A DNA stretch of 36,829 nt from Paludibacteraceae bacterium. GTDB taxonomy: Bacteria; Bacteroidota; Bacteroidia; Bacteroidales; Paludibacteraceae. Of this stretch, positions 6,894 through 35,969 are shown piece after piece. The notes beneath the pieces are model-generated. The model was not told the origin of the DNA. It ran no database searches and saw only the letters and a program-made list of their open reading frames with translations. The number at the start of each line of letters is the position of its first letter. Positions within the stretch are counted from its first letter, which is position 1. The DNA lies in assembly GCA_024405895.1 (NCBI GenBank), contig JAKSNW010000017.1, forward strand, positions 1 through 36,829, given 5' to 3'. The translations under genes and the position numbers were made by a program.

Positions 6894-6915
6894 CGGAGCA
6901 TTTGTTTTTGGGATG

Positions 6916-6923
6916 CAAAATTA
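6916..6923 (-). promoter_or_regulatory. Candidate -7 element for the transporter-ribF unit
   Basis: Minus-strand TAATTTTG fits TAnnTTTG and lies in the short gap between pfkA and the transporter. No good -33 element is seen. Confidence 0.4.
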
Positions 6924-6928
6924 CAAAC

Positions 6929-7903
6929 TTATATTGAGAGAATCTGAATGATTTGATATTTATCGTCCTTCAGTGGTTTGTCGTCTTTGATGGCTTTGGA
7001 GAATGGCACGTGAACCACCTCGTCGTTCTGTACGCCGACCATGATATTGCGCTGATCATCAAGCAGTGCATCAACGGCAGCTACGCCGAGGCGACTGGCA
7101 AGGATGCGGTCGTAGGCAGATGGGGAACCGCCACGTTGCATATAGCCGAGAATGCAGACACGAACATCGTAGTTAGGGTCGAGTTTATGTATGCGGTCGG
7201 CAAGACCTTGAGCGCCACCGCCGCCTTCAGCCACGATAACGATGGAACTGTTCTTGGTTTTTCTGAAACCGTTGGCAATGAGTTGGTCAAGCTGTGCTAC
7301 GGAAGTCTCTCGCTCAGGAACGATGGCAGCCTCAGCACCGGAAGCTAAGGCGCTATTGAGAGCAAGGAAGCCAGCATCGCGACCCATTGCCTCAACGAAG
7401 AAGAGGCGTTCATGCGATGAGGCAGTATCTTTGATTTTATCCACAGCGTCCATAATTGTATTGAGAGCGGTATCGTAGCCGATGGTGGAGTCGGTGCCGC
7501 AGACGTCATTATCAATAGTGCCCGGAATGCCGACCACCGGAATGTCATATTCTTGTGCAAAGACACGTGCACCAGTGAAAGTGCCGTCGCCACCGATGAC
7601 AACAAGAGCATCGATGCTTTCTTTCTGCAGCACCTCGTAGGCACGTTGACGTCCTTCCGGAGTAGTAAACTCTTTGCATCGGGCAGTCTTCAGGATTGTA
7701 CCACCCTGTTGTATGATATTGCTGACATCCTGGCTTTGAAATTCGCGGATTTCATCTTCAATCAATCCTTTGTAGCCACGATAGATAGCTTTTACTTTTT
7801 TGCCGTTGTAGATGGCGGCACGGGTTACGGCACGTACCGCTGCATTCATTCCAGGTGCGTCGCCACCAGAGGTAAGCACGCCGATGCAATTGATTTTTGA
7901 CAT
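6929..7903 (-). CDS. pfkA: ATP-dependent 6-phosphofructokinase
   Basis: Commits fructose 6-phosphate to glycolysis. The 324-residue length is typical of bacterial PfkA. It shows [13 protein letters not shown] at residues 8-20, the GGDGT phosphate loop, the catalytic PGTIDND motif, EAMGRDAG and GYMQRGGSP. Glycine in GGDG and in PGTIDND (where pyrophosphate-dependent enzymes carry Asp and Lys) points to ATP as donor. The start lies 4 nt after the ispH stop, so both share a transcript. Confidence 0.96.
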
Positions 7904-7907
7904 AGTA

Positions 7908-8774
7908 TTATTGTTGTTTCGTTAGTTTTTCTTCAAGCCACTCGGCAACGCGTTCCATTAGCCATTTGGGTGTTGATGTTGCGCCACAGATTCCTATGCT
8001 GTCGTCGGGAGAAAACCAGGCAAGTTCGATATCGTCAGTTGATGAGATAAAGTGTACGTTTTCGTTGACATTGCAGCAAGCTTCGTAGAGCATCTTGCCA
8101 TTGGAACTTTTCACATCGCCAACAAAAAGTATTCTGTTGTATTGCTGTGCAAAGGTGCTGATGTGTGGCAGACGGTTGGCCACTTGTCGGCAGATTGTAT
8201 CGAACGATTGCAATGTAGCTCCGTTTTTCAGGCGTTTGGCTATCGTTTCGGCTATCTGTTGGAAACGTACGATGCTTTTGGTGGTTTGTGAGAACAGCAT
8301 GACTGATTTTGTGTAGTCTATTTTCTCCAAATCCTCATCAGTATCCACCACAATGGCGTGGTTGTCGGTTTGTCCCACGAGTCCAAGCACTTCGGCATGA
8401 CCATGTTTTCCGTGCAGTACAATCTGCGTGCCTGGATTGGAGAGGTATGCTTCACGAATGCGACGCTGAAGGGCAAGCACCACAGGACAAGTGGCATCAA
8501 TGATAGTAATGCCGTTGTTTTCGGCCGTGTGGTAGGTGCTTGGAGGTTCGCCATGTGCACGGAGAAGCACACGTTGTCCATGTAATTGTGCAAACTGGTT
8601 CAGATTGATGGTAACGAGTCCTTGTGCCGTCAGTCTGTCCACCTCGTTGGTATTGTGCACAATATCGCCGAGACAATGCAGCGAACCATGTTCCTGCAGT
8701 TCTTCTTCTACCATACGGATGGCACGTACCACTCCGTTGCAGAAGCCTGAGTTGTTGTCTATCTCAATCCTCAT
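7908..8774 (-). CDS. ispH: 4-hydroxy-3-methylbut-2-enyl diphosphate reductase
   Basis: Last enzyme of the non-mevalonate isoprenoid pathway, a [4Fe-4S] reductase giving IPP and DMAPP. The three cluster cysteines are in NSGFCNGV (C12), DATCPVV and [10 protein letters not shown]. The family motifs [15 protein letters not shown] (usually GHPE; the catalytic Glu is kept), [12 protein letters not shown] and GATSTPKWL are present. A longer frame starts at 8843, but [12 protein letters not shown] at 8774 matches the family start, and a -7 element at 8797-8804 lies inside the longer version, so I use 8774 (288 residues). First gene of an ispH-pfkA transcript. Confidence 0.94.
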
Positions 8775-8796
8775 AAGTCTGTGCCGATTGTGTGTG

Positions 8797-8804
8797 CAAA
8801 GATA
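8797..8804 (-). promoter_or_regulatory. Bacteroidetes -7 element for ispH-pfkA
   Basis: Minus-strand TATCTTTG, a perfect TAnnTTTG, 22 nt upstream of the chosen ispH start; it supports the shorter start. The -33 region shows no clear TTTG. Confidence 0.6.
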
Positions 8805-8843
8805 CGAGTTTTTTTGTGCTTGAAGGGGCTTATGATGTAGCAA

Positions 8844-8965
8844 AGGAGCACCATTTTACCCACGTAGGCATAAATAATAGGATTTGGGCAGAATTTATTC
8901 CAAATGGCGGTAAGTTACTTGCGGAAAAATTCCTCTTTACAGATTAGAACGCAATAATCATACCA
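8844..8965. other. Intergenic, no gene seen
   Basis: About 120 nt between the ispH promoter region and the topA terminator. I see no reading frame with family features and no strong repeat. Confidence 0.5.
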
Positions 8966-9004
8966 ATAAAAAGGGCCACTCCGTTTGGAAGCAGCCCTTC
9001 TTAT
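8966..9004 (-). terminator. Intrinsic terminator after topA
   Basis: AAGGGC at 8971-8976 pairs with GCCCTT at 8994-8999, extended by ACT/AGC with a mismatch. On the minus strand the stem is followed by a T-run (the plus-strand A-run at 8967-8972). It lies just downstream of the topA stop. Confidence 0.8.
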
Positions 9005-9021
9005 TTATAGATTTGTTTTAT

Positions 9022-11457
9022 CTATTTTGCAGCTTTCTTTGTTTTGGCTGTGGTTGTCTTTTTCGTTTTGGTAGCAGTCTTTTTTGTTGCCGTTTTCTTG
9101 GCTTTGGTTTCTGCTGTTCCTTTTTCTGCTTTTTTGGCAGCCACTTTCTTTGTTGCAGCCTTCTTTGCCTTGCCACGACGGGTTGGTTCGGTTTCGGCGA
9201 TTACTTTTTTGCAATCGTCAAGTGTCAGTTTTGTGGCATCTGTTCCTTTGGCAAGTTTATAGTTGCCACCATTGTGACGGATATATGGACCGAAGCGGCC
9301 GTCTAGTACTGCTATATCCTCATCCTCAAATACTTTGATAGTGCGTTTCTGCTCAGCAAGACGTTGCTCCTGAATCAGTTCTACAGCATGTTCCAAAGTA
9401 ACTTCCAATGGGTTTTCGTCTTTTGGCAGGGTGATATATTTGGCATTGTGACGGATGTAGTAGCCGTAAGGGCCATCGCCGACAACCACTTCTTTTTCCT
9501 CGAATTTGCCGAGATGGATAGGCAGTTTGAAGAGGTCAAGTGCTTCGTCAAGTGTGATGGTTTCCAACTTTTTGTCGCGTGAGAGTTTGACAATACGTTT
9601 GTCTTCATCGTCAGTGTCGCCAATCTGAGCTACAGGACCATAGAGAGCGAGGCGTACTAATACGATTTTTCCTGTTTTTGGGTCTTTGCCGAGAATACGT
9701 TCGCCATTCACATGATCCTTGCTTTCGGCTTCAATTACACCTGGGTGGAATGAGGTATAGAACTTCTCGATATTGTCATGCCAGCCAGCTTCACCTGCAG
9801 CAATTGTATCGAAACCTTCCTCCACATTGGCTGTAAAATCATAACGCATGATTTCAGGGAAGTTGTCGATAAGGAATTGGGTTGTAACTGTGCCGATATC
9901 TGTTGGCGAGAGTTTGCCTTTGTCTACAGTAGCCTTGTTTTGTTGCTCTGTGGCTGTGATTTTTCCGTTTTTGAATGTGAAGAGGCGAGTAACAGTAGGT
10001 GCATTCGAAATATCGGTACGCTCTACATATTGACGCTCTTGGATGGTAGAGATGGTTGGTGCGTAAGTTGAAGGACGACCGATGCCCAACTCTTCCAATG
10101 TACGAACCAGAGAAGCCTCGGTATAGCGTGCTGGATGCTGAGTGAATTTCTCTTGTGCAAGAGTCTGCGACAGTTTCAGCGTCTGGTTGGCTTCAAGGCG
10201 TGGCAACAGGGTGGTCTGTGTGTTCTCGTCGTCGTTGTCAACATGTTCCATGTAAACTTTTCTGAAACCGTCGAAAACAACAACCTCACCGGTTGCAGTA
10301 AATTGGTCTTGAGAATTGTCCACCGCAATTGTTACGATGGTTTTTTCCAATTCTGCATCTGCCATTTGTGAAGCAATGGTACGTTTCCAAATCAAGGAGT
10401 AGAGACGTTGCTCTTGCACTGTTCCCTTGATGGTTGGATTGCCTACATAGGTTGGGCGGATGGCTTCGTGTGCCTCTTGAGCACCTTTGCTCTTAGTGGC
10501 ATATTGGCGGAAATGGTAGTAGAGCTCACCATCTTTCTCAATGATGGTCTGTTTGGCAGTATTGAGTGCCAACGATGAGAGATTGACGGAGTCGGTACGC
10601 ATGTAGGTGATTTGACCAGATTCGTACAGCGACTGAGCCAAACGCATGGTGGTTGTTACCGAGAATCCGAAATGACGTGCAGCCTCCTGTTGAAGTGTTG
10701 AGGTTGTGAAAGGTGGAGGTGGCACACGGCGTGTTGGCACTTTGTCCACGCTTTCGATGGTGAAAGTGGAGTGGCTCATTGTTTCCAACAATTCACGCAC
10801 TTCTTTCTCTGTAGTGAGGCGGCGTTTGAGTGTGGCAGTGAGAACAGAACCATCGTCAGTTACAAAATCGGCTGTTACGCGGTAGAATGGTTCTGGTTTG
10901 AATTGGTGAATCTCGCGTTCACGTTCTACAATAAGTCGAACGGTAACACTCTGAACACGGCCGGCCGACAAACGTGGACGAACCTTGCGCCACAGCACTG
11001 GCGACAGTTCGAAACCTACGATGCGGTCCATAACGCGACGAGCCTGCTGAGCATTCACAAGGTTCATGTCGATACCACGTGGATGTTCTATGGCTTCAAG
11101 TATGGCGTTTTTTGTGATTTCGTGAAAAGCAATACGACGTGTCTGCTCATCTTTGAGTCCAAGCACTTCTTTCAAGTGCCAGGCGATGGCTTCTCCTTCG
11201 CGGTCTTCATCGGATGCGAGCCAAACCAACGAAGCATTCTTGGCAGCTTTTTTCAAATCGTCAACGAGAGATTGTTTATCCTCTATAATACTATAGTTAG
11301 GGGTATAGTCTTTCAGTGACGACTCCGAAAACTTGTCATCGACCAGCTCACGCACATGGCCTTGGCTGGACATCACTTTATAGTCATCTCCCAAAAATTT
11401 CTGAATGGTTTTAGCCTTTGCAGGAGACTCTACAATTACGAGATTGGATGCTGGCAT
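9022..11457 (-). CDS. topA: DNA topoisomerase I (type IA)
   Basis: Relaxes negative supercoils through a transient 5'-phosphotyrosine. The TOPRIM domain is at the N-terminus (LVIVESPAKAKTIQKFLG, later SDEDREGEAIAWH). The active-site tyrosine lies in QITYMRTDSVNLS. Two copies of a topoisomerase C-terminal repeat follow (GPYGYYIRHN and GPYIRHNGG) in place of four-cysteine zinc fingers. The last 50 or so residues are a Lys/Ala/Thr-rich basic tail, probably a DNA-binding extension. MPASNLVIVESPAK at 11457 is preferred over an in-frame ATG 33 nt upstream because the family begins a few residues before the TOPRIM strand. It has its own terminator and is probably monocistronic. Confidence 0.95.
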   Translation of the reverse strand: MPASNLVIVESPAKAKTIQKFLGDDYKVMSSQGHVRELVDDKFSESSLKDYTPNYSIIEDKQSLVDDLKKAAKNASLVWLASDEDREGEAIAWHLKEVLGLKDEQTRRIAFHEITKNAILEAIEHPRGIDMNLVNAQQARRVMDRIVGFELSPVLWRKVRPRLSAGRVQSVTVRLIVEREREIHQFKPEPFYRVTADFVTDDGSVLTATLKRRLTTEKEVRELLETMSHSTFTIESVDKVPTRRVPPPPFTTSTLQQEAARHFGFSVTTTMRLAQSLYESGQITYMRTDSVNLSSLALNTAKQTIIEKDGELYYHFRQYATKSKGAQEAHEAIRPTYVGNPTIKGTVQEQRLYSLIWKRTIASQMADAELEKTIVTIAVDNSQDQFTATGEVVVFDGFRKVYMEHVDNDDENTQTTLLPRLEANQTLKLSQTLAQEKFTQHPARYTEASLVRTLEELGIGRPSTYAPTISTIQERQYVERTDISNAPTVTRLFTFKNGKITATEQQNKATVDKGKLSPTDIGTVTTQFLIDNFPEIMRYDFTANVEEGFDTIAAGEAGWHDNIEKFYTSFHPGVIEAESKDHVNGERILGKDPKTGKIVLVRLALYGPVAQIGDTDDEDKRIVKLSRDKKLETITLDEALDLFKLPIHLGKFEEKEVVVGDGPYGYYIRHNAKYITLPKDENPLEVTLEHAVELIQEQRLAEQKRTIKVFEDEDIAVLDGRFGPYIRHNGGNYKLAKGTDATKLTLDDCKKVIAETEPTRRGKAKKAATKKVAAKKAEKGTAETKAKKTATKKTATKTKKTTTAKTKKAAK

Positions 11458-24092: not shown

Positions 24093-25352
24093 TTTCGTTG
24101 TATGCTGTTTGAGGTCGGTGCGACCACGCACTATTTCTTCACGAGAGTTGCTGTCTGGCGGATGCCGTTGGCTGTCACGTTGATGAAGTAGGTGCCTGCC
24201 TCAAGGGTTGAGACGTTCAGGCGGTAGTTCTCTTGTTGTGCTGGAAGCATTACTGTAGTGAGGATGCGGCCGTTGGCATCAAAAAGTTGCATTACGGCTG
24301 TACCAGTGTAAGGCTCAAGCATAAGGACGGTCTCGTCTTTGGCTGGATTAGGCACGATGGCAAACTCTGTGGTGCGGACAATGTCGATGGCTTGCTCAAT
24401 AGGAGCGATGTGAACGATGTCATTGGCAATCTCATCGCCATTGAGACGCACGCAGCCGTCTTCAACGACTGCACCGACAGGAGTAACGATTTCACAACTG
24501 TTGAGGGTGATGCTGTGCCATGAGTCAATTGCACAGTAGCTACCGCCTACATAGGCTTCGGCATTGGTGAAGGTGAGGTTTTCTTCGCCATAGCCATAGA
24601 GGCCGTAGTCTTGGTACATATCTTCGTTGATACGGAAGATACCGTTGGAAAGTTCAAAGTCGGAGCCTGCGTCTTCTGCTCCTATCATTGCTGTAGAGAA
24701 TTGAGCAGTGGCTGTCTGTCCGTGGAGGGTTACTTTCTGTTCACTTGCGTTGTAGACAAATTGTGAGAATTGGTTGTTGCCAGAGAAGTTGACGGTGACG
24801 TCGGGGCTGCTGATGAAGCTCAATGATTCTGCGCTGACATTGTTCAATGTAAGCACATGGGTGTTGCCGTCGTAAGTCACTGTTCCGGTGAGGCCTGGAG
24901 CAGTAAAGTTGGTTTCATTGTCACCGGTAATCTCAACGTTGTTGATGCGGATGCCGGAATTCTCAAATGTGAAGTTGGCAGTGAGGTTGACGTTGCTTGA
25001 AACAGTGATGTTTCTTGGGTTCTGTGTGTTGCCGTCGCTCCAGCTGGCGAATTGGAAACCAGGATTGGCTACGGCCTGAATGGTTGCTGTCGGATTTGAG
25101 CAAGTTGGTTGCGAGGTGACAGACGCTTCGCCCATTGTTGCGTTTGAGCTTGTCAGGGCGATGGTATAAGGGAAGCTTTCAATATAATTTGTAAACTGCT
25201 GCCAAGCGGAGCTGCTGGACTGATATGCAGATGTGCTTCCGCAAGGGATGTATACAGGGATTGAGGTGCTGGTATGATAAAAGACATCAGCTCCTAATTG
25301 TGGGGGTGCTGTGGACAACAAAGTGATGCTTGTGAGGCTTTGACAGTAGCCA
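24093..25352 (-). repeat. Segmental duplication, copy A
   Basis: Covers the C-terminal half of the intact BspA-like gene and about 38 nt beyond its stop codon, reaching the radC leader. It is paired with 26660-27918 (offset 2567 at the stop codon). The first tens of bases around the stop are identical in the two copies, including the non-coding flank. Confidence 0.8.
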
Positions 25353-26413
25353 AAAGCACCATCACCGAGTCTTGTGACCGAGCTTGGAATCGTGATGTTT
25401 GGAAGTGCACAATCCCAAAACGCATCATCTCCGATGCTTGTTACGGTATTGGGGATGGTGGAAGTTGAACAGCCAACAACCAGGCTGTTGTTTGATTTTT
25501 TGATGATAGCGTTGCAGTTGTTTCGGCTGTCGTATACGGTGTTGCCGCTGGCCACGGTGAGGGTGGTCAGTCCACTGCAGTGCCTAAACGGACGAGCGCC
25601 CAAGTTGCGGACCGATGCAGGGATGTTGATGTTGGTCAGATGTGAGCAAAAAGCGAATGCTTCCTCTTCGATGGCGGTCAATGAGTTTGACAAGGTGAGA
25701 GATGCCATTTGCAGGCAATAGGCAAAGGCTTCCATACCGATGCTTGTCACGGAGTTCGGGATAGCGATGCTTTGAAGATTGTCGCAACGATAGAATGCGT
25801 AGTTGCCGATGCTGGTAACCGTGTTTGGAATCGTAGACGATTGGCAACCAGCAATCAACTTGTTTGTTGAGGTCTCAATGATAGCATTGCAGTTGTTGCG
25901 GCTATCGTATACGGTATTGCCGCTGGCCACGGTGATTGTAGTGATATTATAGCAGAAACCCAAAGCTAACTCATCAATGGTTGTGACCGATGCGGGGATA
26001 TGGATGACAGAGAGTCCTGAGCACTCATACAGAGCCTCTTTGCCCAGTTTTGTCAAGGAACTTGGGAGGGTGATAGAGATAAGAGCTCTGCAACTACGGA
26101 ATGCCATGGTGTCAATAACAGTGACAGAATTTGGGATAGTTACACTTGTGAGCCCCGTACATTGTTGAAAAGCATACTTTCCTATGCCAGTAACTTGATA
26201 GGAGTTGCCGTTGTGTGTTACGTTGGCAGGGATGTTTACGTTTCCTGAATAATGGGTGTTAAGGCCTGCCACCACCGCTACGGTAGAGAATGTCTGTGAT
26301 GTGACTTTGTAGTAAATTGTTACTCCGTCGCTATTGACGGCTGAGAAGTCGTATGCAAAGAGTTGCAGGCTCATGCAGAGCACCACAATGATGCATAATA
26401 ATCTTTTTACCAT
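24131..26413 (-). CDS. BspA-like leucine-rich repeat surface protein with T9SS sorting tail
   Basis: Predicted secreted or surface adhesin-like protein of 760 residues. The signal peptide ends at LQLFA before YDF. BspA-type leucine-rich repeats at about 75-400 show the repeating phrases IPNSVT-IG--AF--C--L--I. Within them a module of about 100 residues occurs twice (both copies contain SGNTVYDSRNNCNAII), and its DNA is nearly identical near 25506 and 25879. Next is an InlB-type repeat (NPGFQFASWSDGNTQNPRNITV), a beta-rich segment, and a C-terminal type A sorting domain (FAIVPNPAKDETVLML to AGTYFINVTANGIRQTATLVKK) for type IX secretion. Its promoter lies in a palindromic repeat; radC follows after about 50 nt. 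Confidence 0.9.
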   Translation of the reverse strand: MVKRLLCIIVVLCMSLQLFAYDFSAVNSDGVTIYYKVTSQTFSTVAVVAGLNTHYSGNVNIPANVTHNGNSYQVTGIGKYAFQQCTGLTSVTIPNSVTVIDTMAFRSCRALISITLPSSLTKLGKEALYECSGLSVIHIPASVTTIDELALGFCYNITTITVASGNTVYDSRNNCNAIIETSTNKLIAGCQSSTIPNTVTSIGNYAFYRCDNLQSIAIPNSVTSIGMEAFAYCLQMASLTLSNSLTAIEEEAFAFCSHLTNINIPASVRNLGARPFRHCSGLTTLTVASGNTVYDSRNNCNAIIKKSNNSLVVGCSTSTIPNTVTSIGDDAFWDCALPNITIPSSVTRLGDGAFGYCQSLTSITLLSTAPPQLGADVFYHTSTSIPVYIPCGSTSAYQSSSSAWQQFTNYIESFPYTIALTSSNATMGEASVTSQPTCSNPTATIQAVANPGFQFASWSDGNTQNPRNITVSSNVNLTANFTFENSGIRINNVEITGDNETNFTAPGLTGTVTYDGNTHVLTLNNVSAESLSFISSPDVTVNFSGNNQFSQFVYNASEQKVTLHGQTATAQFSTAMIGAEDAGSDFELSNGIFRINEDMYQDYGLYGYGEENLTFTNAEAYVGGSYCAIDSWHSITLNSCEIVTPVGAVVEDGCVRLNGDEIANDIVHIAPIEQAIDIVRTTEFAIVPNPAKDETVLMLEPYTGTAVMQLFDANGRILTTVMLPAQQENYRLNVSTLEAGTYFINVTANGIRQTATLVKK

Positions 26414-26438
26414 AAGTTGAGTTTTTTGATTTGAGCTG

Positions 26439-26469
26439 CAAAGTTAGTGCAAACCGAGTGGAGAACAAA
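26439..26469 (-). promoter_or_regulatory. Promoter of the BspA-like gene, carried by an intergenic repeat
   Basis: Minus strand: TTTG (26466-26469), 19-nt spacer, TAACTTTG (26439-26446), 25 nt upstream of the start. Spacing and position within the repeat are the same as before tetR. Confidence 0.65.
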
Positions 26470-26590
26470 ATAAAATCCATTTTATTTTTTCTCCCGAGGT
26501 GCAGCCTAACTTCTCGAAAGAGAAGTGCAAGGTGAGTGAAATACAAAATACAATTTATTTTATTTTTATTCCCGAACCGCAGCCTTTCTT
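26439..26590. repeat. Palindromic intergenic repeat, copy 2 (two subunits)
   Basis: Subunit 1 (26439-26516) has the same 10-bp AT hairpin as copy 1 (26467-26476 with 26479-26488) inside an outer palindrome (AAGTTAG and CTAACTT). Subunit 2 (about 26517-26590) is a diverged version with TTTATTTTATTTTTATTCCCGA. Fills the gap between the intact and broken BspA genes. Confidence 0.8.
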
Positions 26591-26637
26591 CTTGAAAGTA
26601 CTGCAAGTTTTTGAATTGACAAATTCTTAGAATGCAC

Positions 26638-26662
26638 AAAAGCCACCCTTTCGGATGGCTTT
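26638..26662 (-). terminator. Terminator of the broken BspA gene
   Basis: AAAGCCACCC (26639-26648) and GGATGGCTTT (26653-26662) form a stem whose one non-pair is a G-U wobble only in the minus-strand RNA. There it is followed by TTTTG. This fits termination of the minus-strand gene that stops at 26698. Confidence 0.65.
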
Positions 26663-27918
26663 CGTTGTATGCTGTTTGAGGTCGGTGCGACCACGCACTA
26701 TTTCTTCACGAGAGTAGCTGTCTGGCGGATGCTGTTGGCTGTCACGTTGATGAAGTAGGTGCCGGCGGCAAGTGTTGAGACGTTCAGGCGGTAGTTCTCT
26801 TGCTGAGCAGGAAGCATCACTGTGGTGAGGATGCGGCCGTTAGCATCAAAAAGTTGCATTACGGCTGTACCGCTGTAAGGCTCAAGCATGAGTACGGTCT
26901 CGTCTTTGGCTGGGTTAGGCACGATGGCAAACTCGGTGGTGCGGACAATGTCGATGGCTTCAACGATAGGAGCGATGTGTACGACACCGTTGGAAATCTC
27001 TTCTCCGTTGAGCTTCACGCAACCATCTTCTACAACAGCACCCATAGGTTCAACAATCTCGCAGCCATTGAGAGTGATGCTGTTCCATCCGTCAACGGCA
27101 CAAGCACTGCCACCCACAAAGACCTCAGCATTGGTGATGGTGAGATTCTCGTCGCCATAGCCATAGAGACCGTAGCTTGCGCTCATGTTTTCGTTGATAC
27201 GGAAGATACCGTTGGCGAGTTCAAGGTCAGAACCTGAATATCTTGTAGACATACGAGCCGTAGTGAGTTGGGCGGTGGATGTCTGTCCGCTGAAAGTTAT
27301 TTTATGCTCGCTGGTATTAGTAATAACGGTTGAGAACTGGTTGTTTCCATTAAAAACGACATTCACATCGGTAAGGTTTCCTGAGAATATCATCGTAGAG
27401 GCACTGACGTTATCCAATGTAAGCACGTTGGTATTGCCATCGTAAGTCACAGTGCCAGTGAGGTTAGGTGCGGTGAAGTTGGCAGCATTGGCTGAGGTAA
27501 TCTCAACATTGTTGATTTTGATGCCAGAGTTCTCTGCGCTGAAGTTTGCTGTGAGAATGATGTCGCTTGAAACAGTGATGTTTCTTGGGTTTTGTGTGTT
27601 GCCGTCGCTCCAACTTGTGAATTGGAAACCAGGATTGGCTACGGCTTGAACGGTTGCTGTCGGATTGGTGCAAGTTGCAGGAGTTACGATGGAGACTTCA
27701 CCCATAGTCTCATTTGCACTTGTTACAGAGAAGATGTAAGGAGGAATCTCGGTGAAATTAGAGAATCTGGTCCAAACAGAAGTATATGACGAAGTGCTAC
27801 CACATGGTATGTTTACAGGTATAGAAGCATCAACATAAGAGAATACATTACTGCTCCTTAATGTTGGTGCGGTTGTTGCCAATGATGTAATGCTTGTTAG
27901 GTGCGTGCAATATTGGTT
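26660..27918 (-). repeat. Segmental duplication, copy B
   Basis: Second copy of the 24093-25352 segment: C-terminal BspA coding region plus about 38 nt of 3' flank. The ends around the stop codon are almost identical; the coding part has diverged, with small indels. Confidence 0.8.
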
Positions 27919-28646: not shown

Positions 28647-29984
28647 ATGTTATTGTCAGCCAAATTTGAAAACATTTACTCGTTTAACGAGGAAACGCGC
28701 ATCTTGTTCACTGCCAGCAAGAGCGACCAATTGCCGTTGCAAGTGTCACGTGCGGAGAAGCGAGATGATATATCTGTGCTCCGCATGGGATTGATTTATG
28801 GTGCCAATGCTTCTGGAAAGTCAAACATCATAAAATGTTTGGCGATTATCAAGGAGTTTGCCTTGAATGGTTGGAGCAACCTCAAATATAATTACTTCAA
28901 GATGACTGATGAACCCCAAGAGCGTTCGAGTATCGAATTGGAGTTTAAGGCAGACAACCAGTTCTTTGCTTACGGAATAGCTTTCTCTAAAGGCGGTTTG
29001 CTTGAGGAATGGCTATATAAGACTGGCAGCCGCAATGACACCATGATCTTTGAGCGTAAACGTAATGGTGACAGTTGGGATAATACTATTGCACCTCAGT
29101 TCCTAAAAGATGAGGATGGACAATTCTTGAAGTTCCTGATTGACGGCACACCTACCAAGGGTACTTTCTTAAGTGAGTATATCAAGCGTAACGGAAAGGG
29201 AATAGATACGATTAAATCTGCTCGTAAATGGTTTGAGAATCTGAATATCATCTTCCCCAATACACATAGAACAGATTTCCCATTCCGAGTTGTGAACGAC
29301 ACCCAGTTCAGAACTGTAATGCGCGAACTGCTAAATTATTTTGGAACAGGTATCTCAGACCTTCGTCGCGTAGAGTCTAAACCTGAAGAATTGGGCATTC
29401 CCGACGAAATCCGTCAAAAGATTGAGGAAAGTCTTGAAGGCAAAGGCTCCGAAACAGGTGTGGTGATTCACAATGAGAACCGCTTCATCTTTGCAGAAAA
29501 AGATAAGTCGAAGAATCTGAAGTGGCATGAGCTGAAAACCATCCACAAGAAGGAAGACAGCAACTCAGACTATATATTCGAAATGTTCGAAGAATCTGAT
29601 GGAACGTCACGTTTGTTCGACTTCATTCCAATGCTTATAGATATGCGTGCAAATGATGCGGTCTATGTGATTGACGAGGTCGATAGGAGTTTGCATCCAA
29701 TGTTGACATTGAAATTATTGGAGATGTACAACAGTCTGCTTAAAAGCGATTCGCAAATGCAGCTAATATGCACTACACACGAGTCCAATCTTCTTTCTAC
29801 CGCCCCTATCCGTCAGGATGAAGTTTGGTTTGTAGAAAAAGACAAAAAAGGAGAAAGCCATCTGTCTTCACTTTGTGAGTACAAGCCAAGAGAGAATGTA
29901 CAGAAAGGTTATTTGAATGGTCGCTATGGAGCGATTCCGTTCTTTGGCGAACTGAATAATATTCATTGGGACGATGCGAAGTAG
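28647..29984 (+). CDS. RloA/AbiL-like AAA ATPase (phage defence)
   Basis: 445 residues, an OLD/SMC-like ATPase of the AAA_15/AAA_21 group. Walker A is GANASGKS at 52-59 (K58) and Walker B is YVIDEVDRSLHP around 340-350 (D343, E344), with the downstream histidine in CTTHESNLL. The segment between is the long insertion typical of RloA-like proteins. These proteins are encoded with RloB (TOPRIM) partners in abortive-infection systems such as AbiL; the sensor-plus-nuclease split resembles PARIS (AriA/AriB), but the partner here is RloB rather than DUF4435. It overlaps the RloB gene by 11 nt and has its own promoter. Confidence 0.88.
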   Translation: MLLSAKFENIYSFNEETRILFTASKSDQLPLQVSRAEKRDDISVLRMGLIYGANASGKSNIIKCLAIIKEFALNGWSNLKYNYFKMTDEPQERSSIELEFKADNQFFAYGIAFSKGGLLEEWLYKTGSRNDTMIFERKRNGDSWDNTIAPQFLKDEDGQFLKFLIDGTPTKGTFLSEYIKRNGKGIDTIKSARKWFENLNIIFPNTHRTDFPFRVVNDTQFRTVMRELLNYFGTGISDLRRVESKPEELGIPDEIRQKIEESLEGKGSETGVVIHNENRFIFAEKDKSKNLKWHELKTIHKKEDSNSDYIFEMFEESDGTSRLFDFIPMLIDMRANDAVYVIDEVDRSLHPMLTLKLLEMYNSLLKSDSQMQLICTTHESNLLSTAPIRQDEVWFVEKDKKGESHLSSLCEYKPRENVQKGYLNGRYGAIPFFGELNNIHWDDAK

Positions 29985-30636
29985 GAATAGTTTGATGCGT
30001 GAACGTCGCGAAGCATTTCGAGACGCCCGCCTGATAGTCATAGCCTCTGAGGGCAAGGACACGGAACGGATATATTTCAAGGCATTAGCCAAGGAATATA
30101 CCAATCCTCGTGTGCATGTGCATATCTTGGAACGTAGTGAAGCAGAACAGAACAACTCCAGCCCGGAACATGTGTTGAAGCAACTGAACGACTACAAAGA
30201 ACAGTATGCTTTAGAAGCAGATGATGAACTTTGGCTTGTTGTTGACAAAGACCGTTGGACTGAGGCGATGCTGTCCCGTGTCGCTACGGAATGTGCACAG
30301 GATGACTATATGCACATGGCTTTGAGCAACCCATGCATCGAGCTTTGGTTGCTTTTGCATCTGGTGGATGCCACCTCATTGACGTCCGAAGAACAACAGC
30401 AATGGTTTGAGAACCGTCGAAATTCGAGGAGGACAGACCCATATCTAAAGATGCGATTGCGTCAAGAGATGGGTTCCTATCATGAGTCGTCTTACGATGC
30501 CAAAATGCTAATAGAGCACGTAGAGGTAGCTATAGCGAGAGCAAAAGCATTGGACAAGAAGCCTGCCGATCGTTGGCCACAGACTCTCGGCACACGAGTA
30601 TATTTGTTGGCTGAAAGTGTGATGAACAGGAATTAA
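29974..30636 (+). CDS. RloB-like TOPRIM protein (phage defence)
   Basis: 220 residues. The TOPRIM-like core shows the conserved glutamate in IVIASEGKDTERIYF (E26) and the acidic pair in LWLVVDKDRW (D91, D93), both expected for metal-dependent nuclease activity. SNPCIELWLLLH is the family's characteristic segment. It is the likely toxic effector of the RloA-like ATPase encoded just upstream. The start at 29974 overlaps that gene by 11 nt; an in-frame ATG at 29995 (MRERREAFRDAR) is an equally good start. The first TIR gene follows after 35 nt, close enough for a joint transcript. Confidence 0.88.
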   Translation: MRSRNSLMRERREAFRDARLIVIASEGKDTERIYFKALAKEYTNPRVHVHILERSEAEQNNSSPEHVLKQLNDYKEQYALEADDELWLVVDKDRWTEAMLSRVATECAQDDYMHMALSNPCIELWLLLHLVDATSLTSEEQQQWFENRRNSRRTDPYLKMRLRQEMGSYHESSYDAKMLIEHVEVAIARAKALDKKPADRWPQTLGTRVYLLAESVMNRN

Positions 30637-30671: not shown

Positions 30672-31238
30672 ATGGAAAGAGGACGCAATTATTTAGCATT
30701 GAATGAGAGCGAGAGGAGATTATTTTCTTCCTCGGCTTTACGGCCTTGTGTATTTATAAGTCACAAGAAAGATGATGCAAATTTCGCAAGACACCTTTCT
30801 GACTACATCATGGAAAGAGGAATCAACGTCTATTTTGACGAAAATGATCCAATACTTTCTAAAGAACACAAATCGCCTGACGAAGTTGTTAACGCAATCA
30901 AGAAAGGTTTGGGAAAATCCACCCATATGATTATAGTTTTGTCAAAGAAGACGTTAGAATCAAATTGGGTGCCATGGGAGGTCGGCTTTGCTAGTGCAAA
31001 AGATAAAGAGTATAGGCTGCTCCGACTTAATGATGTGTTAGGTGACATTCCAGAGTTTTACAAAGTCGCCAAAATCTTGAATGATTATGACGACTTGAAC
31101 AAATACCTTGCATCAATGAAAGCGGCTCAAACCAACAATCGAATTTCTCAAGAAGAAATAATTCGTAAAAAGAAACTTCTTGAACGATTGGATGAGTTGA
31201 AAAAAATTATTCCTCAAATAAATAAACAATCTTTATAA
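30672..31238 (+). CDS. TIR-domain protein 1
   Basis: 188 residues, one TIR domain at about 25-145. It opens with CVFISHKKDDANFARHLSDYI and has the conserved VYFDEND strand. The WxxxE motif that holds the NAD+-cleaving glutamate is NWVPWEVGFA (W99, E103), so it is predicted to be an active NADase or cyclase. The C-terminal 40 residues are charged and helical (KKKLLERLDELKKII). No signal peptide or membrane segment. It is a clear paralogue of the next gene, which starts 1 nt after its stop. Probable role: phage-sensing TIR enzyme, like ThsB of Thoeris, making a signal from NAD+; this is inference from context. Confidence 0.88.
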   Translation: MERGRNYLALNESERRLFSSSALRPCVFISHKKDDANFARHLSDYIMERGINVYFDENDPILSKEHKSPDEVVNAIKKGLGKSTHMIIVLSKKTLESNWVPWEVGFASAKDKEYRLLRLNDVLGDIPEFYKVAKILNDYDDLNKYLASMKAAQTNNRISQEEIIRKKKLLERLDELKKIIPQINKQSL

Positions 31239-31239
31239 T

Positions 31240-31785
31240 ATGGTTAAAGGCTTAAACTATTATTATCTAAGAGATCGTTATAACGGTGTACTCCCGCGCC
31301 CTACGTTGGAGAAACCGAGAGTCTTTATTAGTCATCAGAAGAAAGACTCCGATGCAGCGAAAGCTATTGCCGACTATCTTCAGGACGCTGGTATCGATGT
31401 GTACTTTGACCAATATGACAATAGTATCAACAGGTCCGACCCTCAATCGGTGGTTAGTGCAATTAAAAAAGGAATTGAGAATAGTAGTCATATGTTAGTA
31501 TTATTTTCTCCCAACACATATGGTTCTATGTGGGTGCCTTGGGAAATAGGATATGCTTACAATTCAGTTATCACGCTGAATGTTCTCCGTTTAAAAGGCG
31601 TAGATAAAGCAAAACTGCCAGAGTATTTGAAGGTAGTAAATACCGTGATGAGTATTTATCAACTAAACAATTTGATAGCAAGTATTAGGAGAACCAACAG
31701 AGACCAGCTAATATTAGAAAATAGGTCGTTCTCCGAAAGTAATTCGACTCATGTATTAAACAAAATAATGGATTCTTACGCATGA
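31240..31785 (+). CDS. TIR-domain protein 2 (tandem paralogue)
   Basis: 181 residues. The TIR domain at about 26-150 starts RVFISHQKKDSDAAKAIADYL, continues with VYFDQYD and AIKKGIENSSHMLVLFS, and has the catalytic motif MWVPWEIGYA (W98, E102). It aligns with TIR protein 1 from the N-terminal tyrosine-rich segment (LNYYYL) to beyond the domain, so the two arose by tandem duplication, yet they are well diverged, as expected for paralogues with different triggers. Its stop overlaps the next start by 4 nt (ATGA). Predicted NAD+-processing immune enzyme. Confidence 0.88.
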   Translation: MVKGLNYYYLRDRYNGVLPRPTLEKPRVFISHQKKDSDAAKAIADYLQDAGIDVYFDQYDNSINRSDPQSVVSAIKKGIENSSHMLVLFSPNTYGSMWVPWEIGYAYNSVITLNVLRLKGVDKAKLPEYLKVVNTVMSIYQLNNLIASIRRTNRDQLILENRSFSESNSTHVLNKIMDSYA

Positions 31786-33764
31786 AAAAGAATTTAGCCG
31801 TTTACGTATTGTTTCATACTCAGTATGAGCAAGGTAAAGCCACTTACAGTGACATCTATAAACTTCTTTGCCGTGATGCAAACCATCCTTTTGAGGATGG
31901 TTTGGACATCCCTGTTTATCTGCGAACTGGAGATGACGAGAAGATGAGCGACATAAAGTCAATCAGTTTGGATAATACAGACAAAACGTTTATCTTATTA
32001 TTAGTAGATGACGAAATGTATTGTAGTGATGTGTGGAAAAAGTATTTAGGAGAAGTGGTGGCACTAGAACATGATAATCCTGATAAGGTACAGATTGTTT
32101 GTGTTGAATTGAGCAAATTTGCCTTTGACATCGGTCATGGTCTATCTGACAAACAGTTTATACGCTTGAAGTCATTCTCTATACGAGATAATTGGGAGGA
32201 ATTTCAGATACGATTATTTGACAACATTATCCGCTTTATTATCAGAAAAGAACTGACGAAACTAAAGATTTTTATCAGTCACTCAAAGAAAGATGAGAAT
32301 AAAATTGGTCAAAAACGTGCAATAGAATTCAGAGATTTCATTCGCTCAAAAACAAAGTTGGATTCATTCTTTGATGCCAGTGATATCCTCGATGGGCAGG
32401 ACTTTGAAAATCAAATAAAGAACAATGCGGCAGGAGAACAATCACTGCTCGTCATCTTGAATTCAAATACCTATTCTGAAAGAGAATGGTGCCAAAAGGA
32501 GGTACTCTTTGCAAAGAGTAATAAGATACCTGCAATAGCAGTGAGCCTACTTGATGGTGAAGTGAAGCGTTGCTTTCCATACATTTCTAACATACCGTAT
32601 ATCCGTTTCAACGACAACTGGGTAGATGTTCTGATACTGATATTACGAACAGCATTAGATCAATATTGTCAAGCACAGTATTTGGAGAACCTTCGTGAGG
32701 AAATGGAAGAACCAGACAGAAGCACATTTAAGGTATTACTATTCTCACCTGAGGCCTATTCTTATGTATATGAAGAACTTGCATCGAATATTATTTATCC
32801 TGAGCCACCTCTTACTAAGGATGAATTGGATGTCTTGAAGAAGATTGCAGGAAAAGAAAAGCTGTTTCTTACTCCGATGCAATTGCTAGCACAAACAGTA
32901 AACCTAAAAGGAAAACGTGTAGCGGTTTCCGTGTCCGAAGTTCCAAATTCAGACGTATTAGGCTATGGAATAGATATGATACGAGATTTGACCATAGAAT
33001 TATCACGCCATTTGCTCATAGCTGGTGCTAATATGGTATATGGTGGTGATTTAAGACGAGGTGGTTATACAGAACTCTTTAGTGACATGTCGCTACAATA
33101 TAAAAATTATCAAGGGAATGTAGACCGAGAAACCTTCTTTTTCCGCAATTATTTTGCATGGCCAATCCATCTTAGTTTTACTAATGAGACGAGATTGCAA
33201 TATGTAAATAGTCGTGTTGATCCTATATTCGTAGAATGTCCAGAAGAATATAATGGAGATAAAAGTAAGCCAATAGCACCCGTTAATAATTATAATAACT
33301 ATATCTATGCTTTATCATTATTGAAGATGAGAAAACAAATGGAAACCGAGACGCATGCGAGAGTGATTCTCGGTGGACGCTCTTCTGGTTTTAGTGGTTT
33401 TATGCCTGGTGTAATAGAAGAATTTATTCAATCGGCAATGGCTGGTCATCCAATATATCTATTGAGTGGATTTGGAGGCGCCGCATCAATAATCGCCTCC
33501 CTTATAAATAAAGAAAAGAGCGTTGAAGACGTTATTAAGGAAGCCTGTGAAGAACCTCGTTACGCCGATTTCATGTCTTTCTGCAATAATCAAAGTATAG
33601 ATATGGGCTATAATAAATTGAAAGAAATTGTAGCGAATGGCATAGATTGCCTTAACAATGGATTGAGAAATGAGGAAAATGAAATCTTATTTCGATCAAC
33701 GGATGTTATAGAGATTGTAAGTTTAATAATTAAAGGACTAAAAAATACAATTGGACATGCATAG
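31782..33764 (+). CDS. TIR-like / TIR / SLOG-like fusion protein
   Basis: 660 residues in three parts. Residues 1-150 are a flavodoxin-like, TIR-like domain whose W85 is followed by glutamate six positions later (E91) rather than four, so it may be inactive. Residues 160-295 are a canonical TIR (KIFISHSKKDENK; EWCQKE with W236 and E240) predicted active. After a linker, about 375-585 look like a SLOG (LOG/DprA-like) nucleotide-binding domain: RVAVSVSEVP, YGGDLRRGGYTE at 420-431, GGRSSGFSG at 531-539, and a glycine-rich GFGGAAS near 563-569. In Thoeris ThsA, a SLOG domain binds the TIR-made cyclic ADP-ribose and switches on a SIR2 NADase. Here TIR takes the place of SIR2. The assignment of SLOG is from motif memory. 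Confidence 0.75.
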   Translation: MKKNLAVYVLFHTQYEQGKATYSDIYKLLCRDANHPFEDGLDIPVYLRTGDDEKMSDIKSISLDNTDKTFILLLVDDEMYCSDVWKKYLGEVVALEHDNPDKVQIVCVELSKFAFDIGHGLSDKQFIRLKSFSIRDNWEEFQIRLFDNIIRFIIRKELTKLKIFISHSKKDENKIGQKRAIEFRDFIRSKTKLDSFFDASDILDGQDFENQIKNNAAGEQSLLVILNSNTYSEREWCQKEVLFAKSNKIPAIAVSLLDGEVKRCFPYISNIPYIRFNDNWVDVLILILRTALDQYCQAQYLENLREEMEEPDRSTFKVLLFSPEAYSYVYEELASNIIYPEPPLTKDELDVLKKIAGKEKLFLTPMQLLAQTVNLKGKRVAVSVSEVPNSDVLGYGIDMIRDLTIELSRHLLIAGANMVYGGDLRRGGYTELFSDMSLQYKNYQGNVDRETFFFRNYFAWPIHLSFTNETRLQYVNSRVDPIFVECPEEYNGDKSKPIAPVNNYNNYIYALSLLKMRKQMETETHARVILGGRSSGFSGFMPGVIEEFIQSAMAGHPIYLLSGFGGAASIIASLINKEKSVEDVIKEACEEPRYADFMSFCNNQSIDMGYNKLKEIVANGIDCLNNGLRNEENEILFRSTDVIEIVSLIIKGLKNTIGHA

Positions 33765-34362
33765 AGTATTTGTAAGTTATTACCATCGTGACGACCAGCA
33801 TTATAAAGATAGTTTAGTAGAATGGGCTATAAAAAATGACGTTTTTATTGATGGTTCAGTTGATACGGGAGATATACCGGATGACTGGGATGATCAAAAA
33901 ATACGAGAGACAATTCGTGATGAATACCTTCAGGACACATCCGTGACAATTCTTCTTGTAGGACCAAACACTCGACATCGTAAACATGTGGACTGGGAAA
34001 TTTATTCTAGTATGTATGATGGCAAGAAGAATAAAAAATCGGGAATTGTTGTGGTGATGCTACCAGAAACAAATTGCGAAGGCTGTCATATACCATACGC
34101 AAATGAGAAGTTACAGATTTATCCAGAAGTTTCGAATTGGGTTAGTGTTGATTCTAGGAATGAGTACGAGAAACGTTATCCTGACATGCCTGAACGTATT
34201 ATAGACAATTTAATGAAAGATGGTGTCAAGATATCGGTAACTACATGGAATAAACTGACACCAAACAACCTCAGAATGATGCTCAATAATGCATACGACA
34301 ATCGACAGACTCAACCATATGATTTGAGCAGAAGTATGCGTAAAAAGAATGGTAATTGCTAA
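33751..34362 (+). CDS. ThsB-like TIR protein (DUF1863/MTH538 type)
   Basis: 203 residues. The start HRVFVSYYHRDDQHYKDSL, followed by FIDGSVDTGDI, and the motif NTRHRKHVDWEIYSS (E83 as the putative catalytic glutamate) are those of the MTH538 TIR-like family to which Thoeris ThsB belongs. It differs from TIR proteins 1 and 2, which are of the other bacterial TIR type. It overlaps the fusion gene by 14 nt (an internal ATG at 33757 would reduce this), so the two are translationally linked. Predicted to detect infection and make an NAD+-derived signal. Basic C-terminal tail (RSMRKKNGN). Confidence 0.85.
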   Translation: MDMHRVFVSYYHRDDQHYKDSLVEWAIKNDVFIDGSVDTGDIPDDWDDQKIRETIRDEYLQDTSVTILLVGPNTRHRKHVDWEIYSSMYDGKKNKKSGIVVVMLPETNCEGCHIPYANEKLQIYPEVSNWVSVDSRNEYEKRYPDMPERIIDNLMKDGVKISVTTWNKLTPNNLRMMLNNAYDNRQTQPYDLSRSMRKKNGNC

Positions 34363-34564
34363 GTTCGTGTTACCCGACAATGACACTCAAATCATATAAG
34401 CTTTTTTACAGATAAAGTGGCACTGGATCTGGAGTCCTTGAGGGAGTGTTTTCTCAGTACGAGCGGATGGTAATATTCCTCAAATTTTCTCTGAGGCTAT
34501 TGGGAACATGATTAAACAATCAAAATAACGTAGTATTCAGATTGGTATCAAAAACAACATAATT
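34363..34564. other. Intergenic region, possible gene remnant
   Basis: No intact gene. One frame ends with a protein-like stretch (ADGNIPQIFSEAIGNMIKQSK then stop at about 34526-34528), but it is interrupted by a stop codon within about 70 nt upstream, and I cannot assign it. It may be the tail of a lost gene between the TIR operon and the GNAT-ASCH pair. No Bacteroidetes promoter is obvious. Confidence 0.3.
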
Positions 34565-35617
34565 ATGAATGAAATTATCACATTAAAGCGATTTGCAGAC
34601 GTTGACTTGAACGACACGTTCTTCAACAGCCTGAAAGAAGACTATCCTGGGTTTGAAGCTTGGTTCGAGAAAAAATCTAAGGACAATAGTGAAGCCTACG
34701 TACAATATACAGACGATAACCTACAAGCATTTTTGTATCTAAAAAATGAAAGTGGAGAAGAACTGATCGATGTCACTCCCATTCGTCCTGCTTGTAATCG
34801 TCTGAAGGTTGGCACATTCAAGATTGACGCTCATAATACTAAGCTTGGAGAACGGTTTGTAAAGAAGATTTTAGATACAGCACTCGATATGAATGCTGAG
34901 GAAATCTATGTAACTATATATCCGAAACACGAAGGGCTTATCCGCATACTACAACGATATGGCTTTAATGAGGAAGGAAAAAAAGATGATGAACTTGTAT
35001 TAGTAAAAAACATGAAAGTTCTAACTGGAGACATTCTCAAAGACTTTCCTTTACTCACAGCAAAAGACAAGCGTAAATTTCTGCTTCCCATATATCCTAA
35101 GTATCATACAAAGATGTTCCCGGATTCCATATTGCGAAACGAGGAAAACAAGAAATATGAACTTGTCAAAGATATTTCTTACACGAACAGCATTCACAAA
35201 ATTTACCTTTGTTTTATGCCAGATACAGCGAGATTACAACGAGGAGACATAATTGCTATTTATCGTACAAAAGATGACAAAGGTCCCGCTCGATATCGTA
35301 GTGTAGTTACTTCTATATGCCAGATTGAAGAGGTCAAAACAAATAAGGACTTTGCTACCGTTGATGATTTCCTCACATATACAAACTTTTACAGCATCTT
35401 TGACTCCGAGGAGTTGAAACAATGGTATCAACAAAAGAATTGCTATGTTTTAAAGATGACCTATAACATCGCTCTTACAAAAAGGGTCACAAATGGTTAT
35501 CTTGTCGACAACCTTAAAATGAGCCCGAAGTATTGGGGATTTTTTCAATTAACAGACGAGCAATTTGATGCTATATTAAAAAAAGGAGAAGTCGATGAAA
35601 GTGTTATTATCGATTAA
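34565..35617 (+). CDS. GNAT acetyltransferase fused to a PUA-like (ASCH/EVE-type) domain
   Basis: 350 residues. The N-terminal GNAT-like fold (about 1-155) includes RLKVGTFKIDAHNTKLGERFVKKILD, the strand and pyrophosphate-loop helix for acetyl-CoA, and EGLIRILQRYGF near its end. The C-terminal half (about 165-345) begins YPKYHTKMFPDSIL and includes RLQRGDIIAIYRTKDDKGPARYRSVVT, resembling PUA-like domains that bind RNA or modified nucleobases. The fusion suggests acetylation directed to an RNA or nucleotide-linked target; this is inference. It overlaps the following ASCH gene by 23 nt. It may be a defence or toxin-antitoxin-like cassette given the location. Confidence 0.7.
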   Translation: MNEIITLKRFADVDLNDTFFNSLKEDYPGFEAWFEKKSKDNSEAYVQYTDDNLQAFLYLKNESGEELIDVTPIRPACNRLKVGTFKIDAHNTKLGERFVKKILDTALDMNAEEIYVTIYPKHEGLIRILQRYGFNEEGKKDDELVLVKNMKVLTGDILKDFPLLTAKDKRKFLLPIYPKYHTKMFPDSILRNEENKKYELVKDISYTNSIHKIYLCFMPDTARLQRGDIIAIYRTKDDKGPARYRSVVTSICQIEEVKTNKDFATVDDFLTYTNFYSIFDSEELKQWYQQKNCYVLKMTYNIALTKRVTNGYLVDNLKMSPKYWGFFQLTDEQFDAILKKGEVDESVIID

Positions 35618-35969
35618 ACCAGAGTTTGCCGATAAAATATTTAACGGTACAAAGAAATATGAGTTTCGCAAGAGTATATTTAAGAACAAGGACGTTGACA
35701 CTGTAGTCGTTTATGTATCATCTCCTTGGAAATATATAATTGGCGAGTTCAAGATAGATGCAATTCTTTGTGATAATGTAGATAAGATTTGGAAACAAAC
35801 CCAAGATTTTTCAGGAATCAGTGAAGATTTCTATCGGATGTATTTTGAAAACAAAACAAGTGCGTATGCAATTAAGATAGGACATGTCACAAAATTCAAG
35901 AAGTTCAAGAGACTTAGTGATTATCATATAAATCATGCTCCTCAATCTTTTGTGTATCTACGAACTTAA
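35595..35969 (+). CDS. ASCH-domain protein
   Basis: 124 residues, a single PUA-like ASCH domain: MKVLLSIKPEFADKIFNGTKKYEFRKS at the start (the family signature of IKP-x-A-x-KI-x-G-xK-x-E-x-RK) and VYVSSPWKYIIGEFKID. ASCH proteins are thought to bind RNA, and some hydrolyse modified nucleosides. The 23-nt overlap with the GNAT-PUA gene shows they are expressed together and probably act together. An inverted repeat follows 4 nt after its stop. Confidence 0.85.
   Translation: MKVLLSIKPEFADKIFNGTKKYEFRKSIFKNKDVDTVVVYVSSPWKYIIGEFKIDAILCDNVDKIWKQTQDFSGISEDFYRMYFENKTSAYAIKIGHVTKFKKFKRLSDYHINHAPQSFVYLRT

Follow-up and report, generated by a model that had tools for sequence, protein, structure and literature searches.

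A four-gene TIR operon built around a TIR-SLOG fusion protein in a Paludibacteraceae genome, possibly a Thoeris-like system

What might four consecutive genes do together when each of them encodes a TIR domain? The question is raised by a 36,829-nucleotide stretch of contig JAKSNW010000017.1 (assembly GCA_024405895.1) of a Paludibacteraceae bacterium, which in its full length we call the window, where the genes w3, w4, w5 and w6 lie head-to-tail on the forward strand at 30672-34362 (Table 1). An initial annotation had read them as TIR sensors feeding one SLOG-bearing effector, with Thoeris as the model. Its open reading frame coordinates were confirmed, as were the single nucleotide separating w3 from w4 and the 4-nt overlap of w4 with w5; the 14-nt overlap that it gave for w5 and w6 holds with a TTG start of w6 at 33751 and becomes 8 nt with the in-frame ATG at 33757. 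We see an even chance that w3-w6 serves anti-phage signalling as a Thoeris-like operon, with a relationship to type III, in which the stand-alone TIR proteins (w3, w4 and w6) would make a signal, the SLOG domain of w5 would bind it, and the TIR domain of w5 would deplete nicotinamide adenine dinucleotide (NAD+).

Pfam found a TIR domain in every one of the four proteins, as had been proposed: TIR_2 in w3 (E 1.3e-13), in w4 (7e-17) and in the middle of w5 (9.9e-10), and ThsB_TIR/PF08937 in w6 (4.2e-21, 75.7 bits). The last of these agrees with the DUF1863/ThsB-type label that w6 had been given; the profile match of w6 to solved ThsB is weak (E 0.012). The description of w3 and w4 as tandem paralogues was also borne out, with 38% identity over 152 amino acids. 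The C-terminal domain of w5 belongs to a curated SLOG family, PF18163 (LD_cluster2, 'SLOG cluster2'), at 228.9 bits and E 1.1e-67, well past the Pfam gathering score of 25.3 bits. Pfam matched none of the four operon proteins to a SIR2, macro or nuclease domain (no transmembrane prediction was run), so the expected lack of SIR2 and macro domains held. With no other effector domain recognised there by Pfam, the fused TIR of w5 is the plainest effector candidate. The genome assembly to which the window belongs (1.72 Mb, 78% complete) gave four matches in a TIR_2 search, the fourth of them under the cut-off, and none outside the operon; other TIR families were not searched genome-wide.

We examined residue conservation in w5 using an alignment of 50 fused homologues. 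The putative catalytic glutamate of the middle TIR domain, E240, is kept in 49 of the 50, and by profile this domain matches solved TIRs, including Cat1 (8.8e-6) and AbTIR (0.0012). The N-terminal domain, which the initial annotation had called TIR-like, has no Pfam hit, and a relation to TIR is suggested by one hhalign comparison (P about 0.001). We rejected the idea that this domain is an active TIR, as none of the 50 homologues has glutamate at the aligned position, where 46 have I, L or V, three have Y and one has A. Thus the TIR and SLOG parts of the proposed fusion stood, while its N-terminal part is no more than suggestive. In the linker, P340 and P342 are invariant in all 50 sequences and Y339 is nearly so. 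The SLOG residues invariant in all 50 are M516, R517, R527, G532, G543, E546, E547 and F564-G566.

Two of these residues connect the SLOG domain of w5 with that of ThsA. We compared a ThsA SLOG profile, made from five ThsA proteins and one stand-alone SLOG, with three versions of the cluster 2 profile, and obtained E values of 1e-6, 3.3e-6 and 4.7e-5, each for a single comparison. In all three, R517 aligned with ThsA R371 and E547 with ThsA E403. According to excerpts of PMC10022894, ThsA coordinates 3' cyclic ADP-ribose (3'cADPR; ADP, adenosine diphosphate) through R371, K388 and E403.

To what extent is this arrangement found elsewhere? A scan of genome contigs with the SLOG yielded 115 confirmed stretches, and the family counts below are for the best 80 of these 115 (loci are given L-numbers). 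Their genes were classed with home-made hidden Markov models, which called a SLOG in 79 of the 80 loci (none in L082). By record title, the best 80 come from Bacteroidales, Flavobacteriales, other Bacteroidota, Cyanobacteria, Frankia, Paractinoplanes, Bacilli, Clostridia, Dehalococcoidia, Pirellulaceae, Verrucomicrobia, Acidobacteria, Gemmatimonadota, Synergistaceae, Riflebacteria, several Proteobacteria and others. Of the 79 loci, 56 have the TIR-like/TIR half joined to the SLOG in one protein (whole in 54, in part in two) and 19 have it directly upstream; in L051, L079, L085 and L092 it was neither fused nor adjacent by the rules used. We counted stand-alone TIR genes in two classes only, TIRA (TIR_2-like, a class that also picks up generic TIR domains in larger proteins) and THSB (ThsB-type). 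At least one such gene lies within 3 kb of the core in 63 of 79 loci, with three in 21, two in 23 and one in 19; leaving out the near-duplicates L030 and L060 gives 61 of 77, and other near-duplicates may remain. Within 3 kb of the core there are 0.306 stand-alone TIR genes per kb, compared with 0.0096 per kb at distances above 5 kb, a difference of about 32-fold, and 114 of the 128 nearby genes are on the strand of the core.

The four-gene TIR cluster is therefore real and not a product of chance, because a core with stand-alone TIR genes recurs in many groups. Since the two halves of the core are fused or adjacent in most loci, while stand-alone TIR genes number from zero to three, we conclude that the TIR-TIR-SLOG core is the constant element and that the putative sensor TIRs are the variable one. 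The sensors that the initial annotation had placed around a single SLOG effector are in keeping with this pattern. Independent occurrence of the genes, which the annotation had named as evidence against itself, was found for the stand-alone TIR genes and not for the core. The layout had been called a variant one, which holds in that there is no SIR2 or macro effector; it is not a one-off, however, but a widespread family.

The nearest relatives of the operon are in L028, a Bacteroidales metagenome-assembled genome (MAG), and L029, a Prevotellaceae MAG; L030 is 99.7% identical to L029 and was counted as the same. Both have w4, w5 and w6 at 88-92% protein identity, so the gene order that had been expected in other Bacteroidales is kept for these three genes, with w3 present as scraps. 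Specifically, w3 is a 3' scrap in L028, and in L029 a stretch of 193 bases some 0.7 kb before w4 resembles the end of w3. DNA similarity begins inside w3 (L028) or at w4 (L029/L030) and ends with w6 (34362-34365). Because this homology spans w4 to the end of w6, we take w4-w5-w6 to be the unit, with w3 optional and the boundary drawn from two independent relatives. Indeed w3 looks dispensable, since scraps are all that the nearest relatives have of it. These 3' scraps (L028 7921-8331; L029 7430-7621) suggest that a sensor was lost. A fixed four-subunit machine was ruled out: the number and class of stand-alone TIRs vary, and w3 is a scrap in L028 and L029/L030.

The same relatives indicate how the operon proteins have evolved. 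Whole-gene ratios of nonsynonymous to synonymous substitution rates (dN/dS; Nei-Gojobori, no test statistic) are 0.05-0.13 for w4-w6, with w4 at 0.05-0.11. In w5, DNA identity is 93-99% over the N-domain/TIR half (31957-32556) in all three pairs among the window, L028 and L029, and 70-91% over the SLOG half (33037-33756). For the window and L029, the first half of w5 has a dS of 0.10-0.19 and the SLOG one of 0.82; the window and L028 show a weaker contrast (0.30-0.40 versus 0.57). These differences among three sequences, to which no formal test was applied, suggest recombination between the TIR and SLOG halves of w5.

The mechanism we propose follows type I Thoeris, in which, as reported in part of PMC11204291, ThsB makes a cyclic ADP-ribose isomer, the SLOG domain of ThsA binds it and SIR2 depletes NAD+. 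In our operon w4 and w6 (and w3) would detect infection and make an ADP-ribose-type signal out of NAD+. Binding of this signal by the SLOG domain of w5 would allow the TIR domain of w5 to assemble and to destroy NAD+, and the infected cell would stop before phage release. That SLOG gates the fused TIR we infer from the joining of the two in w5 and from the lack of any other effector domain by Pfam; the signal, the direction of signalling, the loss of NAD+ and the role in phage defence are likewise presumed. The putative catalytic glutamate is present in 62 of 64 TIR_2-type and 68 of 69 ThsB-type stand-alone TIRs (the remaining three are gaps) among sequences within 4 kb of a core, window proteins included. 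Excerpts of PMC10022894 describe this residue as required in every TIR enzyme examined.

Several observations weigh against this interpretation. Sixteen of the 79 loci lack a stand-alone TIR gene within 3 kb of the core, and a contig end lies within 3 kb of the core in six of these (L062, L063, L067, L077, L079 and L092) and not in the other ten. Because of those ten, the core may act by itself or depend on a sensor located farther away. L094 (with two core genes), L096, L101 and L102 are examples of TIR-TIR-SLOG cores that have sequence on both sides and no stand-alone TIR within 3 kb. In the SLOG domain, ThsA K388 aligns one position off the conserved basic residue 533, which is K or R in 45 of 50 homologues and Arg in the window. 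According to part of PMC9503650, a SLOG domain can be an enzyme as well. A kept glutamate, moreover, is no proof that a TIR serves as an enzyme: in Staphylococcus aureus, excerpts of PMC12578639 report that immunity stays intact when the putative catalytic glutamate of ThsB1 is mutated. Finally, we found no experiment on the SLOG cluster 2 TIR family in the literature searched. The terms 'type III Thoeris', PF18163, PF18180 and 'SLOG cluster2' were not found there either, and we do not claim that the family is unpublished.

Some of these points lend themselves to other explanations. The stand-alone TIRs might form a cooperating complex, in which one binds a phage product and recruits another that is the cyclase, while the SLOG-TIR protein is still the effector; S. 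aureus ThsB1 and ThsB2 are reported to work in this way, as one complex (part of PMC12578639), and since the glutamate of ThsB1 is kept without being needed, its conservation here does not count against such a complex. Both TIR classes are near the core in 36 of 79 loci, including 12 of the 13 closest (L028-L040, with L031 the exception), but 27 loci have one class only (TIRA in 12, THSB in 15), and the number of genes ranges from zero to three. We regard a cooperating complex as doubtful though worth keeping in mind. In Bacillus, several ThsBs are believed to detect distinct phage markers (part of PMC11204291), and the variable TIR set around a constant core fits independent sensors or a cooperating pair alike. 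The flow of signal might also be reversed, or form a self-amplifying loop: the TIR of w5 would make a signal that the SLOG of w5 itself senses, and the stand-alone TIRs would be NADase effectors or amplifiers. This would suit the 16 cores that lack a nearby stand-alone TIR, ten of which are flanked by 3 kb of sequence on each side, and the glutamate kept in all TIR classes except the N-terminal domain. However, in most loci SLOG is fused in cis to TIR, as a receptor-effector would be (compare ThsA), and the stand-alone TIRs are the variable part, so we consider reversal unlikely.

Rather than a sensor, SLOG might be a LOG-like nucleotide-processing enzyme that trims or destroys the TIR product. 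Enzymes do occur among SLOG families, as noted above, and the conserved Arg and Glu could be catalytic; but the conserved residues match the ligand-binding residues of ThsA, and the motif of LOG proteins, PGGxGTxxE, is not in the consensus. We think an enzymatic SLOG very unlikely. The slimmest chance goes to the cluster having nothing to do with defence, being either a fortuitous grouping of genes or a TIR locus that has some other role. No phage test of the SLOG cluster 2 TIR family appeared in the literature searched. Against such a view, the same architecture, with its local enrichment in TIR genes, is found in many groups, and the operon sits among defence genes, as there is an AbiL pair upstream and a PDC-M11 candidate downstream. 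The distribution is also sporadic: of 393 genomes of the order, 5 (the window's own among them) have PF18163, and within the family w5 had TIR-level matches only, in 2 other genomes of 101.

Relatives of the core are also present on plasmids and in Escherichia coli. A tblastn search of plasmids matched 11 records, of which we inspected eight. Those of Priestia, Gloeothece and Aureispira carry a fused core and those of Klebsiella, Pseudomonas, Methylorubrum and Mesorhizobium a split one, and each of these cores has one or more TIR genes near it; on a Rhizobium bangladeshense plasmid the core is in pieces. With the Klebsiella operon as query, blastn found a match in 39 of 5426 E. coli genomes; the 15 of 41 E. 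coli records listed each had 66% coverage and about 71% identity, and among those 15 none carried a Thoeris name, their genes being annotated as TIR or hypothetical. The one E. coli record inspected, L108 (NZ_CP031653.1), has at 5849-9024 a row of TIR, TIR, TIR (the core match) and hypothetical (the SLOG match) genes. Elsewhere in L108 (11397-15187), nucleotide kinase and thymidylate synthase genes adjoin a further TIR gene, in what may be another defence system. In L052 (7753-9954) the core TIR protein, upstream of a separate SLOG gene, is 733 amino acids long, and its start, with the motif KGGVGRS, resembles a ParA/MinD-type ATPase. A search for phage-borne copies, consisting of one viral contig scan with 50 pattern matches, gave no relative by tblastn.

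We rejected both flanking gene pairs as parts of the system. Neither the AbiL-type pair nor the PDC-M11 pair had a BLASTP hit in loci L002-L107 (E 1e-5, open reading frames of 80 amino acids or more), and homology stops at w6. The PADLOC scores of PDC-M11A and PDC-M11B, directly downstream of w6, are strong (486 and 164 bits). The AbiL-type pair ends 35 nt before w3, and in its own genome it could share a transcript with the operon though it does not travel with it. Further upstream on the reverse strand are a small DUF2188 protein (PF09954; 28188-28409), just before the defence genes, and two proteins with secretion-system C-terminal sorting domains (24131-27882), one of which has BspA-type leucine-rich repeats.

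Table 1. Features of the operon and its neighbours, in window positions (aa, amino acids)
Feature	Positions	Strand	Description
w3 (gene 1)	30672..31238	+	stand-alone TIR_2 protein, 188 aa, motif WVPWE, putative catalytic Glu103
w4 (gene 2)	31240..31785	+	stand-alone TIR_2 protein, 181 aa, putative catalytic Glu102
w5 (gene 3)	31782..33764	+	TIR-like + TIR + SLOG cluster 2 fusion, 660 aa
w5 N-terminal TIR-like domain	31782..32246	+	residues 1-155, invariant W85
w5 middle TIR domain	32268..32618	+	residues 163-279, putative catalytic Glu240, motif W-C-x-x-E
w5 linker motif YPEPPL	32796..32813	+	residues 339-344, between TIR and SLOG
w5 SLOG cluster 2 domain	32904..33689	+	residues 375-636, invariant R517, E547
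w6 (gene 4)	33751..34362	+	ThsB-type (DUF1863/PF08937) TIR, 203 aa, putative catalytic Glu83 (TTG numbering)
AAA ATPase + RloB pair (PADLOC AbiLi/AbiLii)	28647..30636	+	upstream neighbour, outside system
PADLOC candidate PDC-M11A/M11B (weak GNAT match + ASCH)	34565..35969	+	downstream neighbour, outside system

If the proposed mechanism is right, the operon represents a branch of Thoeris in which a SLOG receptor switches a TIR NADase, not SIR2, and in which TIR partners are exchanged around a fixed receptor-effector. Sensor swaps would then make the target of each ThsB-like protein testable, and the SLOG domain would be a new receptor with which to search for signals made by TIRs and for phage sponges. 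The related E. coli operon could make laboratory work practical. We also raise, tentatively, a broader possibility: a distinct Thoeris type that relays from TIR to TIR through a SLOG receptor, with signal synthesis and killing both carried out by TIR enzymes, present in many bacterial groups including E. coli, where the operon is split. Such a relay might include positive feedback, provided that the effector TIR makes the signal as well.

The initial annotation took type I Thoeris as its model, and here the comparison led elsewhere. Like type I, the operon has a ThsB-type TIR (w6), a SLOG related to that of ThsA with matching ligand-site Arg and Glu, and a single SLOG gene accompanied by at least one TIR gene (part of PMC11204291). 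Unlike type I ThsA, which is SIR2-SLOG, the domain joined to the w5 SLOG is TIR; Pfam found no SIR2 in the operon or scanned neighbours, and STALD (PF18185) had no match in the own genome. Type II Thoeris (macro-TM ThsA with ThsB) is similar in having one or more TIR genes per operon, and no macro domain was found by Pfam among nine proteins scanned. The type IV effector is a caspase-like protease, according to part of PMC12847820, and the same nine proteins gave no peptidase match in Pfam. As a functional analogy, Cat1 (CARF-TIR) and the TIR-STING and SAVED-TIR effectors are described as controlling a TIR through a domain of the same chain that senses nucleotides, as is proposed for w5, and the Cat1 TIR is a profile match to that of w5. 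Unlike in those effectors, the proposed sensing domain of w5 is SLOG, and TIRs are the presumed makers of its signal.

Of the known systems, type III Thoeris comes nearest; NCBIfam showed two models of it in our scans, ThcA (NF058525, cut-off 110 bits) and ThcB4 (NF058526, cut-off 220 bits). Formal membership was ruled out by these cut-offs, although the architecture matches. ThcA matched none of eight window proteins at E 0.1 and nothing in the own genome (it occurs in 5 of 395 genomes of the phylum), and w5 reached 37.5 bits with ThcB4, in the TIR region only; in a profile comparison of the N-terminal half of w5 with ThcB4, the TIR domain alone aligned. Because the window proteins miss both cut-offs, we treat the operon as a related variant, not a certified type III member. 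The two also differ in their SLOG domains: that of ThcA is cluster 3 (PF18180) in all three ThcA proteins tested, whereas that of w5 is cluster 2, does not match PF18180 at E 0.1 and, unlike in type III, is fused to the TIR protein. STALD matches of the ThcA proteins were 31.8, 16.6 and 18.1 bits (cut-off 24).

Type III and the operon share a SLOG protein, a TIR protein whose N-terminal region is long (ThcB4 in type III) and further TIR genes nearby, a gene set that was found when loci L023-L027 were set against the window and L019/L020. The five ThcA loci (L023-L027), some of which end at contig edges, have a ThsB-type gene in all five and a TIR_2-type gene in three, and ThcB4 was checked by NCBIfam in L025 and L027 only. 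Comparison of the cluster 2 and cluster 3 SLOG profiles gave E values of 3e-6, 1.1e-5 and 5e-4 with different alignment sets, and by profile the cluster 2 SLOG is related to those of both ThsA and ThcA. In L022 (1141-4803), from the window's order, the SLOG passes two Pfam cut-offs, that of cluster 3 with 101.5 bits and that of cluster 2 with 29.5 bits, and this locus is an apparent intermediate between type III Thoeris and the SLOG cluster 2 family. Taken together, the w3-w6 operon is built like type III Thoeris and is probably related to it by descent.

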